Shown: piece by piece, positions 14,730 through 28,869 of the stretch
Layout of the letters: each line of letters begins with the position of its first letter
Numbering within the stretch: position 1 is the first letter of the stretch
DNA from: an uncultured Nitrospirota bacterium
GTDB lineage: Bacteria > Nitrospirota > Nitrospiria > Nitrospirales > UBA8639
Reading direction: 5' to 3'
Assembly (NCBI GenBank): GCA_937139405.1
Contig: CAKZPV010000017.1
Span: 1-64,000 of the forward strand
Length of the DNA: 64,000 nucleotides
The notes under the pieces: model-generated
Told to the model about the DNA's origin: nothing
Database searches by the model: none
The model's input: only the letters and a program-made list of their open reading frames with translations
Program-made: the position numbers and the translations under genes

Positions 14730-15881
14730 ATGTATTCTGCGAATATTGATATACAAGGTGCCTTAGATGATTTTGTTCTCGAAGGTACCACGTTTCCCTA
14801 CAACGATTTTGTCGCAAGGCTGTACAACTTTTGTCGATCGCAAGGCTTCGAACCTGGGAAGATTTTACCGTCACGGGCCTTTTGTTCTGATGAAACCCAA
14901 GGGTATCCCAGCATTCTGATCGCCAAACATTTCGGAGCCTTCCCGTTTAACCATGGAAGAGTCGGTGGCATTATTTCGACCGACCGGCATAGTCCGCATG
15001 CACACCATGGGAAAGACTTGCTGATCATCCATGCCAGTCATGTGGGGTACGATCCAGAAAACAGTACTTTTGGAAACTACCATCGGTGGCATACGGAGTA
15101 TTTCGAGACCACACCGACCTGTGGCAAAATCGACAGTGTGCTTGAGTGGTACGTCAGACAATATGCCTTTGCCAAAGACAACATCTTTCTCCATCGTCAG
15201 GATAATGACCTGCTGGTCACCATTAACAACCAAATCTTGAATGAGAACAAGAAAGAGGGTTTATTTCTCTACCTAGACAAATTTATCGCTGTAGGAAACC
15301 ATGGGGAGTCTCATCCATGCAAATCCTACAGCACATCTAAATGTTACGTGGCCTGCCCAGAACTTCCTGAGCTTCTGGGAGAGGCCGCATGGCCGAGCAA
15401 GGGGTGTGAACCCATTGGTGAGAGGCTTCTCCCTCAACTGTTTGGTTTCAAACGGCATATTTCTGGGGATCCGGAAACCCATGGACTTCTTGAGGAGAAT
15501 CTGATCCACCCTATGCCCTGGATCGTTTCCTCAACATCCCCTCTGCTCACCGCAGCCCAAGCCAACACGCAGGTCGAGTTTGACCGCACCTACCGAACCT
15601 TAGTCAATGGCGACGCCTATCGTGGGAAGCGACTGATATTTATCTCCGGTCTGAATGTCGACATTTCTCCTCATCAAAACCAAGCGTTCCCGTCGACAAC
15701 CTTTGTGCCATGGGCGGCATTTATTCAAGAGCAGAATGGGAAATGTGTTGTCCTAGAACAGCGGGACATCGTGGACCGACTGCGTGAACAACATGAACAC
15801 AATCCTGATGAAGTGGACCTTGAGAAAGCGATTCAGCAAATGAAAGGCCTCGAGGAAATCACGATCAAGCTTGTCGATTAA
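14730..15881 (+). CDS. LCIB/C-type (beta-like) carbonic anhydrase
   Basis: 383 aa, ATG at 14730 behind AAGGGGGAAG. It resembles the LCIB family of algal CO2-concentrating proteins and their bacterial homologues, which have a beta-carbonic-anhydrase-like zinc site. Candidate ligands are Cys52 (FCSDETQG), His104 (IIHASHVGYD) and Cys131 (TPTCGKID), with Asp54 next to the first. The spacing follows the Cys-His-Cys order of that family (C-x-D-E, then HSP-K-LL-x-H, then C-G). The classic C-x-D-x-R arginine is not obvious, so activity needs care. It lies upstream of a Dab pump in a likely autotroph, which suits a CO2/bicarbonate role. Confidence 0.8.
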   Translation: MYSANIDIQGALDDFVLEGTTFPYNDFVARLYNFCRSQGFEPGKILPSRAFCSDETQGYPSILIAKHFGAFPFNHGRVGGIISTDRHSPHAHHGKDLLIIHASHVGYDPENSTFGNYHRWHTEYFETTPTCGKIDSVLEWYVRQYAFAKDNIFLHRQDNDLLVTINNQILNENKKEGLFLYLDKFIAVGNHGESHPCKSYSTSKCYVACPELPELLGEAAWPSKGCEPIGERLLPQLFGFKRHISGDPETHGLLEENLIHPMPWIVSSTSPLLTAAQANTQVEFDRTYRTLVNGDAYRGKRLIFISGLNVDISPHQNQAFPSTTFVPWAAFIQEQNGKCVVLEQRDIVDRLREQHEHNPDEVDLEKAIQQMKGLEEITIKLVD

Positions 15882-16684: not shown

Positions 16685-17584
16685 CTATCGAAAAAGGGTT
16701 TCCTTTGCGGTTTGTGAAATCGCTAGAACAGCAGGGTGTTTGATCCGGCGCTCCACAGTTATGCCATAAAAACGTTCCGTGAGACCTGGAACGTGACCGA
16801 CGGTTCGCACTTGATATTGGCGGGTAATTTCTTTCGCAACCACAGAGGACCCTGGAAATAAGCCATGCCCCTCTTGTCCAAACGCTTTCATCGTCGCTCC
16901 ATCTTCAAACTCTCCGACAATTACTGGGTGGATAAGTTGCTTTCGAAACCATTCTTCCATACCACGCCGTAGAACCGAATTGTTTGTCGGTAAAAGAAAC
17001 CGTGCTCCATCCAATGAATGGGGAAACTTCCGGCGATATTGTCGAGCCAAACGTTCCGTCCCAAAGATCGTGACACCTGTTTCTCCGAGTAAATGACTAT
17101 GGGCCTTGATACTTACAGTGGGAGGCACTGGTGCATCGGTGATCACAATGTCTAGCGTATGAAGTGCGAGTTCCCCAAGAAGTCGCTCTAATCGTCCTTC
17201 CCAACAGACAACCTTGATATTCTCAAATTTTTCGAACGCGACTTTTAATAGTTTATAGGCCACCATTTTAGGGACAACTTCAGCTATTCCCACAATGAGG
17301 CGAACCGGGTGAGTGGACTCACGGCCCTTCAAGGTGTTGGTCAATTCCTGCCCAAGAGTAAAAATTTCCTCAGCATACCGGTACACCTCCCGTCCCACAT
17401 CAGTAAGGACCAGTTTTCTCGCTGTTCGAGTAAACAATTTCTCACCAATAGCGTTTTCAAGAACGCCAAGCTGAGCGCTTAGTGCTGGCTGCGATAGAGT
17501 AAGCACCTCGCATGCCTGCTTGATAGAACCCTCGCGAGCAATGACCCAGAAATACTGCAAATGATGATAATTAAGCCAGTTCAT
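16685..17584 (-). CDS. LysR-type transcriptional regulator, NhaR-like
   Basis: 299 aa from the ATG at 17584; an in-frame upstream start adds six residues. The N-terminal winged helix starts MNWLNYHHLQYFWVIAREGS, the signature opening of the NhaR branch, followed by LTLSQPALSAQLGVLE and LFTRTARKLVLTDVGREVYR. The C-terminal ~200 residues are the substrate-binding co-inducer domain. NhaR-type proteins answer sodium or alkaline stress in Enterobacteria; here the position beside an ion-coupled bicarbonate pump suggests control of dab genes, an inference. The adjacent rightward receiver gene is divergent. Confidence 0.85.
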   Translation of the reverse strand: MNWLNYHHLQYFWVIAREGSIKQACEVLTLSQPALSAQLGVLENAIGEKLFTRTARKLVLTDVGREVYRYAEEIFTLGQELTNTLKGRESTHPVRLIVGIAEVVPKMVAYKLLKVAFEKFENIKVVCWEGRLERLLGELALHTLDIVITDAPVPPTVSIKAHSHLLGETGVTIFGTERLARQYRRKFPHSLDGARFLLPTNNSVLRRGMEEWFRKQLIHPVIVGEFEDGATMKAFGQEGHGLFPGSSVVAKEITRQYQVRTVGHVPGLTERFYGITVERRIKHPAVLAISQTAKETLFR

Positions 17585-17808
17585 TTTGTGTAGACTATAC
17601 ATTTATAAATTAAATGAATCAATTTAATATTATGTATTTGTTTATGTCAGAAAGCCCTTGTACCGTAACCATCAAGATAGGTTACAGGAAAATTTTGTAT
17701 CCTCGAGGGCACGAAAGCGTAGACTCACCAGAAAGAGTGGTAGGGCCGTGCTATCATGGCAAATTGAAAGAGAAACGGTGGCAAGATCTTTTTGTTGGTT
17801 TTTTGTAG

Positions 17809-19313: not shown

Positions 19314-19580
19314 ATGAAAAGCTCGACAGAAAGCCTACCCATTAAGATCCCTCGCGTAGGTATTTTCACGGGAAGCAGAAGTGACTGGGGTATGATGCGT
19401 CCGGCCAGCGTAATATTGGACGAACTCGCGATTGCCTCAGACGACCAAGAAGAAGGTGTGGCAGTGGAATTATCAAATTTGGAGGAATACTTGGCGTTAT
19501 CCTCCTCCTTTTGTTCAGCCGACTTTTTCTTAAAAGATACGCTTGGGTTCTCTCAACCTTTCGGGGAGATTCCTTCGTGA
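19314..19580 (+). CDS. PurE-like leader ORF coupled to dabB
   Basis: 88 aa, ATG at 19314 after GAGGAAC. Residues ~13-42 match the N-terminus of PurE (N5-carboxyaminoimidazole ribonucleotide mutase / AIR carboxylase): IPRVGIFTGSRSDWGMMRPA with the GSxSDW phosphate-binding loop, then LDELAIA. The rest (acidic, then SAHR-less) does not match, so the PurE core and active-site His are missing. It is not a working PurE. Its TGA overlaps the likely GTG of dabB (GTGA), which suggests coupled translation and argues that the frame is still used. It may be a degenerate fragment or a small regulator. Confidence 0.55.
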   Translation: MKSSTESLPIKIPRVGIFTGSRSDWGMMRPASVILDELAIASDDQEEGVAVELSNLEEYLALSSSFCSADFFLKDTLGFSQPFGEIPS

Positions 19581-21277
19581 CGTTGTTCTTCGCGATTCTC
19601 GTCCCGATTTTACCTCTGGCTTCTGGAATGATCCTCGGTCTTTTCGGGAGACATCTGGGAGAAAAGAGTTCTAAGGTGGGAGTCTCAGCGCTGACTCTGG
19701 CATTTCTTGCTTCTCTCTGGATGCTCTACGCAGTCAGTGTAGACGGACCCATTCAGATCATATTTCATCCTTTCTCTTCTGGACCAAATAACTGGTTACA
19801 ATTCGGATTGTTCATCGATCGTCTGAGTGCGGTCATGATGGTATTGATCACGAGTGTCAGCACAGTGATTCACGTGTATTCCATTCGCTACCTCCAAGGG
19901 GATCCTGGTTATGCTCGATTTTACGCCCTACTGGGTTTCATGACTTTTGTCATACTTTCTCTTGTTTCCAGTCCAAACTTGTTCATGTTGTTTGTGTTCT
20001 GGCAATTACTCAGTTGGGCATTGTATCTCATTCTTGCGTTTAATTATTCTCATCCTCCAGCCTATCAGAATGCATTTAAAACATTTTTTGTCCATCGAGT
20101 CGGAGATGTCAGTTTTCTGTGTGGTCTCTTTTTGACTTTTAAGTATTTCGGCACACTTGAGTTTACTGAACTCTTCCAACGGGCCTCAGAACACACTCAA
20201 ATGATTTCGTTATTGCCAGGAAATATATTCGATGTCAGTGCGGTTACGGTGATCACGTTATTGATTTTTGTGGGCGCGATGGCCAAATCAGCTCAATTCC
20301 CTCTACATGTGTGGTTACCTGACACCATGGATGCGCCTACTCCAGTGTCAGCCCTTATGCACGCAGGCATTATCAATGCCGGTGGATTTTTATTGAATCG
20401 ACTAGCACCTTTTTACGCCCTCTCACCAACGACGCTTCACATTGTGTTTGTGGTTGGCGCCCTGACGGTTCTACTTGGTGCCTCCATGATGCTCGTACAA
20501 AATGACATCAAGAAAACCTTGGGGTTTTCCACCATGGGTCAAATGGGCTACATGATTATGGAATGTGGGCTTGGGGCTTTTGCGCTGGCGATCTTTCATC
20601 TAATCGCACACGGTCTTTTTAAAGCAACATTATTTCTGGGAGCAGGACAGGGCATTCATGCGGCACGGGATGAGCCAAAGTTCCCGGCTTCGTCTGCGCA
20701 CGAACCCGTGAGACCCCCAACTCAACTAACCTGGGTTACCGGTTTAATCCTCACGTTGATTATGCCACTAATTATTCTCATGGTGGCCCATGACATGTTG
20801 AATGTCCCTTTACAAGATGCCCATGGAGCGATCATTTTTCTCTTTTTTGGTTGGGTGACGGCGTCTCAAGCCATGTTTAGTTTATATCGCCTTCATGCGG
20901 TAGCCTCCTGGAAAGTCGCAAGCGCGATGATCGGCACTTTATTTTTCATCGGGTTTATCTATCTGTGGGCCGGTGAGGCATTTACACATTTCCTGTATCC
21001 CGATCGAGGTGTGGCTGATGGATTTTTCATGTCTGCGTCGCTCAATCCTCAAGTGTTTGATACGCTTGTCTTGATTGCCACCCTACTCATTCTTTTTGGT
21101 TGGGTCATTGTCTATACCAATACCAAGGGGCAAACAATACTGAATACGAATTGGCTTCTTACTATTCGGAAACAACTGTATATCCTTTTGATTAATCGTT
21201 TTTATATAGATCTTGTGTACCTGCGATTGGGCAATAGCATATTGCGCTGGGCTCAAAAAATAGCCCATCGTTATTGA
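19577..21277 (+). CDS. dabB: DabB: proton-channel subunit of the Dab carbon pump
   Basis: 566 aa from the GTG at 19577, with GGGGAGA seven bases upstream; longer in-frame TTG starts are inside the previous gene. It is a NuoL/MrpA-type antiporter protein with about 14 membrane helices and the hallmark FPLHVWLPDTMDAPTPVSAL and HAGIINAGGFLL. With DabA it forms an energy-coupled CO2-hydrating bicarbonate uptake complex in the inner membrane (Halothiobacillus DAC/DAB family). Position before an antiporter-like gene and dabA supports this. The charged residues of a proton path look retained (Lys in AMAKSAQFPLH). Confidence 0.9.
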   Translation: MTLFFAILVPILPLASGMILGLFGRHLGEKSSKVGVSALTLAFLASLWMLYAVSVDGPIQIIFHPFSSGPNNWLQFGLFIDRLSAVMMVLITSVSTVIHVYSIRYLQGDPGYARFYALLGFMTFVILSLVSSPNLFMLFVFWQLLSWALYLILAFNYSHPPAYQNAFKTFFVHRVGDVSFLCGLFLTFKYFGTLEFTELFQRASEHTQMISLLPGNIFDVSAVTVITLLIFVGAMAKSAQFPLHVWLPDTMDAPTPVSALMHAGIINAGGFLLNRLAPFYALSPTTLHIVFVVGALTVLLGASMMLVQNDIKKTLGFSTMGQMGYMIMECGLGAFALAIFHLIAHGLFKATLFLGAGQGIHAARDEPKFPASSAHEPVRPPTQLTWVTGLILTLIMPLIILMVAHDMLNVPLQDAHGAIIFLFFGWVTASQAMFSLYRLHAVASWKVASAMIGTLFFIGFIYLWAGEAFTHFLYPDRGVADGFFMSASLNPQVFDTLVLIATLLILFGWVIVYTNTKGQTILNTNWLLTIRKQLYILLINRFYIDLVYLRLGNSILRWAQKIAHRY

Positions 21278-21293
21278 AACACGACCTATACCC

Positions 21294-22535
21294 ATGTTGA
21301 ATGTAGAACATTTTCTTCCAGTAATTATCGCTTGTCTTCCCCTCCTTCTGGGAGTAGTGGGAAAAGTTTCACGAATGTCGTTTGCTCCCTTTCAGGCTAT
21401 AGGATTAATGACGATTGGCGGAATAGGCGGGGGGCTGGCCTATATGCAGTCTGCGTTTGAGACAGACCCATCACGCATGTTTTTAGCCGTCGCGGTTCTT
21501 CTCTCAGGTTTTTGTGTCATTTTCCCCCAAAAGGAAACGAAACATTCCTCAATTCATTGTGCTTCAATTATGATAGTTCTAGGGTTGAGCCTAGGTGCCT
21601 TACTAAACCAGGGACTGCTCAGCAGGATTTTTCTGAGTGGTCTCTTAGTCTATGCCGCTGTTTCCCTTCTTCAAGCGAAACACCGTTCCCCTCGAGCAAT
21701 AATTACCCTTCTCCATATCGCTGTTGCTAGCATCATCTCTTTGGGCTCCAGCTTCGGTGGTCAGACCTTCCAGATACTGGTGAGTCTGTTCCTGGCCATG
21801 ACGTTTTTGCCACTAACCCCTTTCCATCTTCCATTCGTGAGCACGGTTGGAAGTGCGAAAGGGCCACTTTCGAGTTTTTGGATTGTCGTATGGCTAACTC
21901 TCGGACTTGCTGAATTGCACATGATTCAATCCTCATTAACGACTGAAGGACTCTTTCCTCTGCACCTACTAGCTTTAGGGAGCGCAGTCTATGCTTCTTT
22001 ACTATGTCTGGGACAACAACATTACAATCAATTTGTTGCCTCTGCCACCGTGGCTCATGTGGCATTGATCTGGGGGCTGATTGACGTGTTCCCGGACTTT
22101 CCCGGATGGGGAATTCCGTTTGGTGTAACTGTGGCATTCGTGATGAGTGGCCTCTGCATCACGTTTTCATTTGTTCGACAGCGCTACGGATGGCAAATCT
22201 TTGGAAAGCTTCCTGGACTTGCTTCTCCAATGCCGCGCTTTGGAACAGTGATGATTCTTCTGGTGAGTTTCGCCATGTTGCTCCCTTTGTTCCCAACATT
22301 TTCAGGATTGATTCCTATGACAACCGTTGTGACTCAGGATAGAGGATTCACCATGATGTTAATTACATTTGTTGTGGTTTGGTTGGTGGGCGGATGGTAT
22401 TTTTCACAAATGCTTCATCAAACCGCCTTTGGAGCGGCGCGCGCAAACATACCGTATACGGATTTGCGGATACCAGAAATCGTCGCGGTATCCGCTCTAC
22501 TCTTAGGTGCAACCTATAGTGGAGTGTTTCACTAA
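21294..22535 (+). CDS. Second antiporter-like membrane subunit of the Dab cluster
   Basis: 413 aa with about 12-13 hydrophobic segments. LPLTPFHLPFVSTVGSAKGP matches the region where NuoM/NuoN proteins carry FP-H-WLP-AH, but the Trp and following motif are altered. It starts 16 bp after dabB and ends 48 bp before dabA, so it is almost certainly part of the same complex. The usual two-gene Dab systems lack such a subunit. Whether it still carries a proton path is unclear, because the conserved charged residues of that family are sparse here. Confidence 0.8.
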   Translation: MLNVEHFLPVIIACLPLLLGVVGKVSRMSFAPFQAIGLMTIGGIGGGLAYMQSAFETDPSRMFLAVAVLLSGFCVIFPQKETKHSSIHCASIMIVLGLSLGALLNQGLLSRIFLSGLLVYAAVSLLQAKHRSPRAIITLLHIAVASIISLGSSFGGQTFQILVSLFLAMTFLPLTPFHLPFVSTVGSAKGPLSSFWIVVWLTLGLAELHMIQSSLTTEGLFPLHLLALGSAVYASLLCLGQQHYNQFVASATVAHVALIWGLIDVFPDFPGWGIPFGVTVAFVMSGLCITFSFVRQRYGWQIFGKLPGLASPMPRFGTVMILLVSFAMLLPLFPTFSGLIPMTTVVTQDRGFTMMLITFVVVWLVGGWYFSQMLHQTAFGAARANIPYTDLRIPEIVAVSALLLGATYSGVFH

Positions 22536-22583
22536 CATGACAGTCTTCTTAAACCTTTTTTAGAGATTAGCGACCCACAAGCC

Positions 22584-25500
22584 ATGCCAATGCTCGACGT
22601 TAAAGAACAGGTTGTCCCCCAAGATTTTCAGCGGATGGAATTACGGTCACTCGTGAATCTTGCGGGTGAACCCATCTCCCATTACTGGCCGATGAAAACG
22701 TTCATCCATCACAACCCCCTTCATGGGTTGGAACATTTGTCATTTGATGAAGCCATCAAGCAAGGTACACGGTTTTTTGGAGGTGAGGGCTATCTTTCTA
22801 ATACAGAATATCGGAATTACTTTAAACAAGGCCGAATATCTGAAGAGTCCATTAATGAAGCCATAAAGGATATATCGGAAAATGCGATGATCACCATTGG
22901 TGATCGAAAACTCTCTCATCTGGAAGTCCTGCGAACCATCCTCATTCACGGCACCGGAAAAGTTTCGGCGGATGTGAGTTCAGCGATTTTACAACCATTT
23001 CTCAATCAACCAGATATAAAAAATCTCGTCGAGAAAGTACAAGAAATTTCAAAGAGGAACGAACGAACGGATTCCTTGAGTGGTCATGCGAGTCAAGAAC
23101 TCGAAAAACTGGCGTCAGAGTACACAATTGGAGAATGGTGTGACCGGACTCTTGGCACGAAAGTACAGGAGCAAGTTAACGGCGAAGTCATCAAATGGTG
23201 TGGAGGGTTTCTCGATGAAGGACATGCGCCGTGGTCTATGCCATTGCGAAAGAAAACCTTTTATGGTGGATGGAAAGATTTGGCGCAGGAAGATATGTCT
23301 GGTTCATTGTTGGGTATTCAGGAGTGGAAAAATAAAATCCGCAATTTGCCCGATAGACCAGAAGATGCTGTATTGGAAAGCTTAACAGTCCTCGCAATTC
23401 CCAAAGCATTGTGGAGTGACTATTTCACGCTACAGATGGCCCAATTGTCAGGATGGACGGGTTTCATCAAATGGCGGTCGGAACAACAAGACTATGAGTG
23501 GCAACGCGCCTTTCCAATTGACCTTGTCAAGTACATGGCTGTCCGTCTTTTTTATGAACGGGAATTAGTCACATTGGCATGCCAAGATAAACTCGCAATT
23601 CCCGGCACCTATGCTTCGATTCGGTCTTACCTGAACAATCATCCTTTGGGGTATGGGCTCTACAAAGAATTCCAAACGCGAGGGTTGCCGGAGGAAATGC
23701 TAGACCAACTGGATCTGTCATTATTCCTAAAGGCTCCCCTGAACGTTGAAGCCCTCGAGCAATGCGATACAGAGTTGCTTTCAAAATGGGAAAGTATTAG
23801 GCACCAGCAAGAGACTGATGGCCAAGCCTTGATTCTCTTACACATAGCCGAATCATTGAACGTCTCTATACAGGATTTACTGAAGAGTACTCCTGGCACC
23901 TTAGAAACCTTGCTCGATTGGGTCGAGCAGTTCCCAGAATCACAGCATGGGCCCAGCTGGCTCAAGGCCTTTGAGGCTAGCTACCTCAAAGGATTTGTGA
24001 AACAGATTTCCCCAAACCTTCAGGAATTGTGTAAGAGCGATGCACTTGAGGAACTGCCTCCAGAATCGCGGCCATTGGCTCAGGCCATGTTTTGCATTGA
24101 TGTCCGTTCCGAAGGATTTAGAAGACATTTCGAAGAAATCGGTGGAAATGAAACATTTGGGTTCGCTGGCTTTTTTGGAGTCCCCCTCTGCTATCAAGGA
24201 TATACGAGCGAGCAGCAAACAGATCAATGTCCAGTTCTTCTGAAACCCAAACACGTCGTGAAAGAAATTCCTCGCGCGTATCAGGGGAAGGCGGCCGAAA
24301 AATTTTTAGAGCGTCATCAACTCGCCAAAACAGGTCATACGCTACTACATGATCTGAAAGAAAACGTGATTACTCCGTATGTCATGGTCGAAGCGATTGG
24401 ATGGTTCTTTGGGTTCAAGCTATTCGGTCAAACGCTGCACCCTCAATGGTTCAAAATTTTCATCTCCTGGATGAAAGAGCGTGTGGCTATTCCCATAGGA
24501 ACCACACTCACCGTGGACAAAATCCGGCAGGAAGAGGCACAGGAAATGGTAGCGTCTGAACACCGGGCAGCTATTTATCGACAGTTGATAGAACGATATG
24601 GTCGGCAGAGCACCGCTGTCCCTCATGACCAGGTTGAGCGTCTACGGAAGTTAGCGCTGAATCAAATTCAATCAGACAGTCATGAAAATGAAGAACTGTA
24701 TCGATTGCTACGGTGGACCGAATCTGACCTTGAACAATTCATTCGAGTACTCAGACGAGATTTTAATTTGCATGAGCGAGACGTGGCTCGTCGGATGCAC
24801 CGGATCACACAAACAGGGTTTACGGTAACTGAACAGGCCCACTTTGTGGAAACGGCTCTAAGGATTTTAGGATTCACCAAAACATTTGCCCGGCTCGTTT
24901 TGCTTTGTGCACATGGCAGCAGCTCGGATAACAACCCCTACGAATCTGCATTGGATTGTGGAGCTTGTGGTGGAAACCATGGGAACTCAAATGCACGGGC
25001 CCTTGCTGTGATGGCCAATAAACCACAGGTTCGACAAGCCCTGGCTCAGAAAGGTATAGCGATTCCAGCAGATACACATTTTCTTCCTGGCCAACATGAT
25101 ACGACAACTGATGAAGTGACACTCTTTGATTTGGAGGAGGTCCCGGCCACACATCGAAAAGATTTGCTCAGACTTCAACAAGACCTCCAAGAAGCCGGAG
25201 AAAGAAATAGTCGAGAACGGCTAACCCGGTTTCCAGACGAGGCTGTCACGAATGGAGACTATAAAGCATTACCGCGAACCAAAGAACGAAGCGTGGATTG
25301 GTCGCAGGTTCGACCAGAATGGGGACTGTCTCGGCATACAGCCTTCATCGTGGGGCGGCGTCTGTTGACGCAAGGGATTAATCTTGAAGGTCGGACGTTT
25401 TTGCACTCCTATGATTATTTACAAGACCCAAACGGAAAATACTTGGAAATTATTATGACGGCCCCGATGATCGTGGGGAATTGGATCAATATGGAGCATT

Positions 25501-25835
25501 ATTTTTCTACCGTCGATCCCATGGTCTATGGGAGCGGGAGCAAGGTGTACCATAATGTCGTGGGTCGCGTAGGCGTGATGTACGGCTCGCAGAGCGATCT
25601 GTGTGTTGGGCTCCCAGTCCAAACGGTCTTTGATGGTGAGACCCCTTACCATGAACCTATGCGATTGTTCGTCATCCTTGAAGCCCCACTAGAAAGGATT
25701 TCATCCATCATTGCACGGCATGATATCTTGCAACGCTTGACGGGCAATCAGTGGATTAATATTGTTGCCTTAGATCCCGTCACGATGGAATTTTTCCTCT
25801 TTCGATCACCGGATGATTGGCAACTTATTCATTAA
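22584..25835 (+). CDS. dabA: DabA: carbonic-anhydrase-like subunit of the Dab pump
   Basis: 1083 aa DUF2309/UPF0753 protein. Zinc-site residues can be placed: Cys504 and Asp506 in MFCIDVRSEG, His777 in CAHGSSSDNNPYE and Cys792 in ALDCGACGG. The 15-residue His-Cys spacing equals that known for Halothiobacillus DabA (H524-C539), but the stretch from the first Cys to His is about 100 residues longer (273 versus 173) and the N-terminus about 150 longer. It is cytosolic and acts with DabB to trap CO2 as bicarbonate. The start may be the ATG two codons downstream. Confidence 0.95.
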   Translation: MPMLDVKEQVVPQDFQRMELRSLVNLAGEPISHYWPMKTFIHHNPLHGLEHLSFDEAIKQGTRFFGGEGYLSNTEYRNYFKQGRISEESINEAIKDISENAMITIGDRKLSHLEVLRTILIHGTGKVSADVSSAILQPFLNQPDIKNLVEKVQEISKRNERTDSLSGHASQELEKLASEYTIGEWCDRTLGTKVQEQVNGEVIKWCGGFLDEGHAPWSMPLRKKTFYGGWKDLAQEDMSGSLLGIQEWKNKIRNLPDRPEDAVLESLTVLAIPKALWSDYFTLQMAQLSGWTGFIKWRSEQQDYEWQRAFPIDLVKYMAVRLFYERELVTLACQDKLAIPGTYASIRSYLNNHPLGYGLYKEFQTRGLPEEMLDQLDLSLFLKAPLNVEALEQCDTELLSKWESIRHQQETDGQALILLHIAESLNVSIQDLLKSTPGTLETLLDWVEQFPESQHGPSWLKAFEASYLKGFVKQISPNLQELCKSDALEELPPESRPLAQAMFCIDVRSEGFRRHFEEIGGNETFGFAGFFGVPLCYQGYTSEQQTDQCPVLLKPKHVVKEIPRAYQGKAAEKFLERHQLAKTGHTLLHDLKENVITPYVMVEAIGWFFGFKLFGQTLHPQWFKIFISWMKERVAIPIGTTLTVDKIRQEEAQEMVASEHRAAIYRQLIERYGRQSTAVPHDQVERLRKLALNQIQSDSHENEELYRLLRWTESDLEQFIRVLRRDFNLHERDVARRMHRITQTGFTVTEQAHFVETALRILGFTKTFARLVLLCAHGSSSDNNPYESALDCGACGGNHGNSNARALAVMANKPQVRQALAQKGIAIPADTHFLPGQHDTTTDEVTLFDLEEVPATHRKDLLRLQQDLQEAGERNSRERLTRFPDEAVTNGDYKALPRTKERSVDWSQVRPEWGLSRHTAFIVGRRLLTQGINLEGRTFLHSYDYLQDPNGKYLEIIMTAPMIVGNWINMEHYFSTVDPMVYGSGSKVYHNVVGRVGVMYGSQSDLCVGLPVQTVFDGETPYHEPMRLFVILEAPLERISSIIARHDILQRLTGNQWINIVALDPVTMEFFLFRSPDDWQLIH

Positions 25836-25865
25836 TACTTCTTTGTTGAGGAGGATCGAAACATT

Positions 25866-26201
25866 ATGAGCACCATGAAACTTTATCCAATGAAAGAAAT
25901 AAAAATCATTATTGAAGGGGAACACCTTCACTTCGTCACAGACGTGCTTGATCGAATCAAAGCCAGCGGATATACGATTTTCAGTAATATCTCCGGCAAA
26001 GGACAACACGGGTTCCATGAAGGGCATCTCATGTTTAATGACACGAGTAGCTTGCAAATGGTCTTAACGGTCATTCCTGAAGAAAAGCTGGAGCCAATTC
26101 TTTCAGGGCTCAAACCATTTTTGGAGCGTCACTCAGGTAGTCTCTTTGTGTTAGATGCCTGTGTCCTCAGAAAAGATCACTTTGATTCAGCAGAATCATA
26201 G
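25866..26201 (+). CDS. PII-like regulator of the Dab cluster
   Basis: 111 aa, ATG at 25866 with AGGAGG upstream. A ferredoxin-like PII-type fold is suggested by KEIKIIIEGEHLHFVTDVLD, GYTIFSNISGKGQHGFHEG (a T-loop-like glycine stretch) and VLTVIPEEKLEPILSGLKPF. Homologues (carbon-associated PII, SbtB-like) commonly sit after dabA or bicarbonate transporter genes. Such trimers bind adenine nucleotides and bicarbonate and gate the transporter. Here it is 30 bp after dabA, so a DabA/B controller is the likely role. Confidence 0.85.
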   Translation: MSTMKLYPMKEIKIIIEGEHLHFVTDVLDRIKASGYTIFSNISGKGQHGFHEGHLMFNDTSSLQMVLTVIPEEKLEPILSGLKPFLERHSGSLFVLDACVLRKDHFDSAES

Positions 26202-28020: not shown

Positions 28021-28869
28021 ATGAAGACCCACACCTCTCTCACAACATTGAGTATGGTGGTTCTTACCGCCTGGATGGGGTCTACGGCCTTAGCGGCCCC
28101 CGCCCAAAGCAACATCACCCCTCCTGTATTCCTCCCAGCTGGCGACATGGCCCTTCCTGCCAATGCCAAAGCAGGGAAATGTTATGCGCGAGCATTTGAA
28201 GACCCGAAATACCGAACTGAGACCGAAGAAGTTCTTAAGAGACAAGCGTCGGAACGGATTGAACTCATCCCCGCTCAGACCGAGATGGTAAAACAACAAG
28301 TCCTGGTCCGGGCCGCGTATGAACGGGAAGACATTATTCCAGCCCAGTTCGATACGGTTACCGAAAAAATTCTCGTTAAACCTGCCACGACCCGTTGGAA
28401 AAAAGGCCGAGGATTAGTGGAAAAGGTCAATAATTTTACGGGTGAAATCATGTGCTTGGAAGAAGTCCCTGCTGAATACAAGACCATTACGAAGCAGGTC
28501 GTCACCGCGCCAGCATCGAAAAAACTCGTACAAGTCCCCGCCGAGTATAAAACCGTGATGGTCAATAAAGTGATTGCGCCAGCTCGAGAAAACCGAATTC
28601 CTATCCCCGCTCAATATCAAACTGTGACGAAAACGGTAAAAGAGTCTGAAGGGAAGATGGTGTGGCAAGAAGTGTTGTGTGAAACCAACGCACCAGAATT
28701 AGCAAAAAAGACGCCGGCCTTCACGAACATTCATGCTCAGCCCAGTTCCGCTTCTCTAGTAAAGGGGTCGACGCAAGATGCAGGAAAGAAAAATTGGTTC
28801 TTTCTCTGGGACTATGACGAGTTATTTGACAACGGGAATTGGGTGAGAGCTGATCGCGGCATATTCTAG
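28021..28869 (+). CDS. Secreted protein with PA[EQ]YxTV repeats
   Basis: 282 aa; ATG at 28021 after AACAAGGAGA. Signal peptide cleaves near ALAAP. After CYARAFED the chain is a series of about five related segments with IPAQTEMVKQQVLVRAAYER, IIPAQFDTVTEKILVKPA, VPAEYKTITKQVVTAPAS, VPAEYKTVMVNKVIAPAR and IPAQYQTVTKTVK. This beaded, Pro-rich, Thr/Val-rich pattern is typical of cell-envelope proteins that may pair with OmpA-like domains. No OmpA domain is present here. An intrinsic terminator follows at 28905. Confidence 0.75.
   Translation: MKTHTSLTTLSMVVLTAWMGSTALAAPAQSNITPPVFLPAGDMALPANAKAGKCYARAFEDPKYRTETEEVLKRQASERIELIPAQTEMVKQQVLVRAAYEREDIIPAQFDTVTEKILVKPATTRWKKGRGLVEKVNNFTGEIMCLEEVPAEYKTITKQVVTAPASKKLVQVPAEYKTVMVNKVIAPARENRIPIPAQYQTVTKTVKESEGKMVWQEVLCETNAPELAKKTPAFTNIHAQPSSASLVKGSTQDAGKKNWFFLWDYDELFDNGNWVRADRGIF

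Follow-up and report, generated by a model that had tools for sequence, protein, structure and literature searches.

A probable DAB1-type three-subunit bicarbonate-accumulating complex encoded beside a CPII gene in an uncultured Nitrospirota bacterium

Positions 1 to 64,000 of contig CAKZPV010000017.1 (assembly GCA_937139405.1, an uncultured Nitrospirota bacterium) were analyzed as a single stretch of 64,000 nucleotides, hereafter the window. Between 19577 and 26201 it carries four genes on the same strand, dabB, a middle gene here called mid, dabA and cpII, a candidate operon for a bicarbonate-accumulating DAB complex with a PII-like regulator. By open reading frame coordinates, the genes are separated by gaps of 16, 48 and 30 bp, as the first-pass annotation of this DNA had stated. 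The dabB gene begins with GTG at 19577, preceded by a GGGGAG element. A scan for promoters and terminators returned counts near chance. The features of the locus are as follows.

19577..21277, plus strand: dabB, NuoL-like membrane subunit of 566 residues (Pfam Proton_antipo_M/N, 2e-58; DabB2 9rd0_B, 1e-41)
21294..22535, plus strand: mid, degenerate NuoM-like protein of 413 residues with 14 predicted helices (profile, model)
21747..22523, plus strand: half of mid resembling transmembrane helices (TM) 7-14 of NuoM, the part kept in Proteobacteria and in DabB::mid fusions
22584..25835, plus strand: dabA, cytoplasmic beta-carbonic anhydrase (beta-CA)-like subunit of 1083 residues (PF10070, 2e-267; DabA2 9rd0_A, 1.6e-111)
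24093..24107, plus strand: C504, D506 and R508 of DabA, zinc ligand and Asp-Arg dyad, equivalent to DabA2 C351, D353 and R355
24390..24392, plus strand: E603 of DabA, equivalent by alignment to Glu444 of the DabA2 transmembrane finger
24501..24818, plus strand: helical insert of DabA, approximately residues 640-745 (spacing survey; helices predicted at 649-742), specific to the DAB1/CPII clade
24912..24959, plus strand: H777 and C792 of DabA, zinc ligands, equivalent to DabA2 H524 and C539
25866..26201, plus strand: cpII, carboxysome-type PII-like regulator of 111 residues (P-II PF00543, 6e-22; PDB 5d4l/5d4n family, 4e-34)

Both DabA and DabB carry the hallmarks of the DAC/DAB family. The former combines the PF10070 domain with a Cys2-His zinc site, the Asp-Arg dyad and the finger glutamate, and the latter is an antiporter-like subunit with the proton-path residues of DAB2. 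Across a 16-sequence DabA alignment C504, D506, R508, H777 and C792 do not vary, and the zinc-site pattern is retained among the 126 DabAs surveyed, which bears out the ligands proposed earlier from the window alone. Each of the corresponding residues of Halothiobacillus neapolitanus DabA2 (C351, D353, R355, H524 and C539) is required for CO2-limited growth (PMC13144422). In the DabB2 proton path, H260, K310, S316, H339, H343 and K347 are conserved in all 15 DabB homologues compared, and S256 and K235 in most of them.

The window DabA is enlarged in two places, both of which had been recognized in the first-pass annotation. Its C504-C792 spacing is 288, within the range of 274-289 found among mid-bearing DabAs in the first survey, whereas two-subunit DabAs span 172-220 and the Mrp-associated DabA of the host genome has 213. 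The extra stretch of about 100 residues, predicted to be helical, falls between E603 and H777. The N-terminus is also longer, the first zinc cysteine being residue 504, compared with 351 in H. neapolitanus DabA2. The insert-bearing DabAs (n = 25, DAB1 included) form one clade with a support of 0.966; in a wider trimmed DabA tree the deep branches were weakly resolved.

The middle protein had been described as a NuoM-like framework with an altered channel motif, and both parts of this description held. Alone, the window mid has no Pfam match; 8 of the 15 members of its profile match PF00361, and the 15-member profile matches NuoM/ND4 chains at 1e-10. A structure model of mid (m4835af61b746, approximately 14 helices, mean predicted local distance difference test score of 80) resembles the NuoM/NdhD/ND4 folds, with chain D of NDH-1MS as the top match. 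At the positions of NuoM K234, K265, H348 and E407, none of these residues is present in any of the 15 mids, and the equivalent of H322 is retained in four; the TM7/TM8 lysines and the TM12 acidic or basic residue of NuoM-type proton pumping are missing. Direct homology of mid to DabB was considered and rejected, as the profile-profile comparison gave a probability of about 1 percent; mid was therefore placed nearer to NuoM than to DabB.

The window mid is homologous to the 248-265-residue middle protein of the Proteobacteria DAB1 (hhalign probability 98.8, E 4e-17). These short mids, which occupy the equivalent position in Halothiobacillus, Acidithiobacillus, Igneacidithiobacillus and Thiomonas, span the TM7-14 half only, and a 358-residue form adds to the picture of N-terminal erosion in several lineages. 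The gene is also the fastest-evolving of the operon: identity to locus L041 is 34% for mid, 64% for dabA, 68% for dabB and 81% for cpII. Copies of mid broken by a frameshift split or an in-frame stop were seen in L022/L052 (genome G019), L017 (G028) and L019 (G016). They reflect either decay or sequencing error, and the neighboring dab genes look intact where read.

To assess gene order, mid-like genes were sought in 60 genomes of relatives and found in 36. The order dabB–mid–dabA–cpII recurs in 19 relative loci (L034-L052, some of which reach contig ends) and is thus not a chance arrangement. The same order with a homologous mid occurs in Halothiobacillus (L153) and Acidithiobacillus (L154). 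Relatives from Halothiobacillus, Acidithiobacillus and Thiomonas combine the dabB–mid–dabA order with a DabA insert of about 100 residues, and the position of mid between dabB and dabA is shared by members of at least two phyla. A wider draw on the phylum yielded DabA in 106 of 246 genomes; in its insert-bearing loci mid is separate, fused to the C-terminus of DabB, or absent. The DabB::mid fusions comprise L186, L194, L196, L204 and L206 (mid profile E 4e-60 to 4e-78), with L203, which reaches a contig end, counted as the sixth. Such natural fusions counter the possibility, raised earlier, that mid lacks any contact surface with DabB. No mid was recognized in the 1.3 kb that separate dabB from dabA in L207 and L208.

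Among the closest described counterparts is DAB1 of H. neapolitanus (hneap_0907 DabA1, hneap_0908 and hneap_0909 DabB1), a three-subunit DAC (PMC13144422). Its dabAB1 genes together with the interstitial gene, named by the authors as mrpA family PF00361, complement carbonic-anhydrase-free E. coli (PMC7714395). The earlier statement that the Halothiobacillus pump needs DabA and DabB only is hence outdated, while the idea of a third DAB subunit and a PII-like partner agrees with the homology of mid to the DAB1 interstitial protein and with the match of cpII to CPII. Since DAB1 is known with the same gene order and a homologous membrane gene at the interstitial position, the window operon is a member of the DAB1 type and not a new architecture. 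In 2021, Schmid et al. reportedly described complexes with one to three subunits, every one of them needed.

Compared through the locus of Halothiobacillus sp. 15-55-196 (L153; dabB, a 248-aa gene, dabA of 1046 aa, CPII), DAB1 and the window share three subunits, their order, the long insert-bearing DabA, the adjacent CPII and a homologous mid. The neighbors of the dab genes in that genome are, as we take them to be from their sequences, carboxysome-region genes. DAB1 differs in its carboxysome/cbb region, its Calvin-cycle organism and its half-length mid of 248 residues, against 413 residues and no RuBisCO match here. With H. neapolitanus DAB2 (PDB 9RD0), the sole DAB structure that turned up in the searched copy of the PDB, the window shares the DabA zinc site, the finger glutamate and the DabB proton path, whereas DAB2 has two subunits, no mid, no DabA insert and no adjacent CPII (surrogate locus L053/L158). 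The fold and C-terminal half of mid are like those of NuoM/NdhD/ND4 of complex I and NDH-1MS, and NDH-1MS, too, has a module for CO2 hydration alongside NuoL- and NuoM-like subunits; unlike NuoM/NdhD/ND4, the window mid is without channel residues and there is no redox arm.

The window cpII matches the PDB 5D4L/5D4N family over residues 1-103 and by its sequence belongs to the CPII family. The 5D4L/5D4N family is presumably the CPII of Thiomonas, which, according to Wheatley et al. in 2016, is said to bind adenylates and bicarbonate. Unlike the CPII of carboxysome operons (PDB 5D4L-5D4P, 5DRK and 5DS7), the window protein, known here from sequence, is encoded next to dabA and by a genome with no RuBisCO match. 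Nucleotide control of the pump by CPII is plausible. In the surveys, CPII was located within 2.6 kb of 43 of the 49 insert-bearing DabAs versus 1 of the 104 without insert, with a few loci represented twice in these counts. Six insert-bearing DabAs fall outside this count: in L034 and L217 the locus extends past the contig end, in L155 CPII is 3.8 kb away, and three are orphans. The first survey had suggested that the insert was tied to mid; this was rejected because insert-type clusters without mid exist, and the insert tracks CPII. As insert-bearing DabAs are close to one clade, the relation is an association and not independent proof.

No RuBisCO large-subunit match was found in the 98% complete host genome, which encodes one ATP-citrate lyase-type citrate-binding domain; on these grounds the host probably fixes carbon by the reductive tricarboxylic acid (TCA) cycle. 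No carboxysome context is present within the window. The host genome also encodes a second DabA (L033, contig C37, 6817-9840) that lacks the insert. Its gene follows one for a SulP-type transporter and precedes Mrp-type antiporter genes; in DabAs of this kind the finger glutamate is replaced by aspartate (4 of 4).

Considering these data, we judge it likely that the operon encodes a DAB1-type three-subunit bicarbonate-accumulating complex with CPII, in which mid would be an inert scaffold at the DabB side and CPII would exert tuning. In DAB2, the proton motive force drives one-way CO2 hydration and the DabA finger sits in the DabB proton path (PMC13144422); conservation of the same DabA and DabB residues points to the same mechanism here. 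DabB would conduct protons down the proton motive force and thereby drive DabA, which, as a zinc beta-CA-like enzyme with E603 on its membrane finger, would hydrate CO2 in one direction so that bicarbonate accumulates. This bicarbonate may serve a RuBisCO-less autotroph, probably through the reductive TCA cycle. The middle protein would be placed next to DabB much as NuoM is next to NuoL. It has no proton-path residues, evolves faster than the other genes of the operon, is trimmed at its N-terminus in several lineages and is fused to DabB in others, which best suits an inert scaffold on the DabB side. CPII would adjust the complex to the level of bicarbonate or adenylates, perhaps by docking on the DabA helical insert.

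Several points weigh against this reading. The DAB1 comparison was made through Halothiobacillus sp. 15-55-196 (92% DabA2 identity) as a surrogate, not H. neapolitanus itself. A fold search with the DabA model gave no significant match (library to April 2026), so the placement of the insert rests on sequence and secondary structure. CPII lies near a two-subunit DabA without insert in L168, the sole such case of the survey, and the co-occurrence of insert and CPII may be inherited rather than functional. Mid is absent, with dabB directly before dabA, in L183, L189, L190, L191, L193 and L211; given these insert-type clusters and the frame-broken copies (G019, G028 and G016), mid may be dispensable.

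The last point leads to the alternative that mid is a relic being lost, with DabB and DabA alone pumping. The mid-less clusters, the N-terminal erosion with broken frames and the fast evolution of mid all speak for it; still, mid is kept between dabB and dabA in at least two phyla, is fused to DabB in six loci, and five or more of the six genomes with a mid-less cluster also hold a mid-containing copy (L218, L223, L224, L225 and L226), and we regard this alternative as unlikely. The first-pass annotation had named a dispensable and randomly placed middle gene as evidence against a three-subunit reading. Random placement is not seen, a mid recognized as a separate gene always lying between dabB and dabA, but the mid-less insert-type clusters speak for dispensability.

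It is quite improbable that mid is a second working translocator of protons (or Na+), which would move more ions per CO2 than DAB2. The NuoM-like fold of some 14 helices and the occurrence elsewhere of DabA clusters with multiple antiporters are in line with such a role, against which stand the loss of four NuoM channel residues in 15 of 15 mids (H322 being kept in 4), the missing first half of the antiporter fold in the Proteobacteria mid and the broken frames. Least probable of all is that the locus encodes no CO2-hydrating pump and instead an MpsAB-kind Na+/bicarbonate symporter or a repurposed antiporter: an NhaR-like regulator lies upstream and MpsAB is argued to use Na+ (PMC13144422), but the zinc site and finger glutamate of DabA and the proton path of DabB are those of DAB2, which does not use Na+ (PMC13144422), and the CPII and DAB1 context also argues against it.

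Returning to the DAB1-type complex with an inert mid, the DAB1 kind is already known, and what is added here is the channel-dead mid, the DabB::mid fusions, the mid-less paralogues and the insert-CPII association. From the survey the third subunit, so far little understood, can be read as an inert NuoM relative beside DabB, for which the natural fusions and mid-less paralogues are ready test material; the DabA insert is a candidate CPII control site. Since the DAB1-CPII set occurs here where RuBisCO had no match, it is more than a carboxysome accessory. Efforts to engineer carbon fixation count DAB complexes among their candidates. More tentatively, and with considerable doubt, we hypothesize that pumps of a DAB1/CPII clade combine a working NuoL-like channel with a NuoM-like scaffold that no longer moves protons and that stands alone, is joined to DabB or has been lost, and that the helical DabA insert docks CPII to switch CO2 hydration on or off. 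If true, a PII-type protein would directly switch a pump that hydrates CO2, and would do so outside carboxysomes and in autotrophs that probably use the reductive TCA cycle.

Further observations concern other DabA loci. In the DabA tree, the mid-less DabAs group with the orphans in a single clade; the orphans are insert-type genes with no dabB nearby (L190 16951-19901, L193 13965-17441 and L219 5959-9195). In mid-less clusters, cpII is immediately followed by a conserved gene pair, encoding a protein of about 670 residues and a response-regulator-like one of about 466 residues (L190 7078-10477, L193 9244-12646 and L189 2647-6162). Another DabA class of 1063-1215 residues (L159-L167, with exceptions, L173, L174, L176, L178 and L209) adjoins a DabB-like gene and two or more NuoM/MrpD-like genes of about 500 residues, and the finger glutamate was missing in 13 of 13 members checked.

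A divergent regulatory gene lies upstream of the dab genes in the window.

16685..17602, minus strand: LysR regulator of the NhaR family (NhaR equivalog, 221 bits versus a cut-off of 219)

A LysR gene is also found upstream of dab in L034, L035, L036, L040 and L047, and the NhaR-family protein is a probable regulator of the dab genes. About 4 kb upstream of dab, the window encodes an LCIB_C_CA-type (beta-CA-like) protein (14730-15881, plus strand), barely above the Pfam cut-off. LCIB-type carbonic anhydrase was considered as a conserved dab partner and rejected, its distribution being patchy (4 of 21 genomes) and, in G004, G007 and G011, on contigs other than the dab contig. At 28021-28869 (plus strand), a 282-residue repeat protein with no Pfam or NCBIfam match looks secreted.

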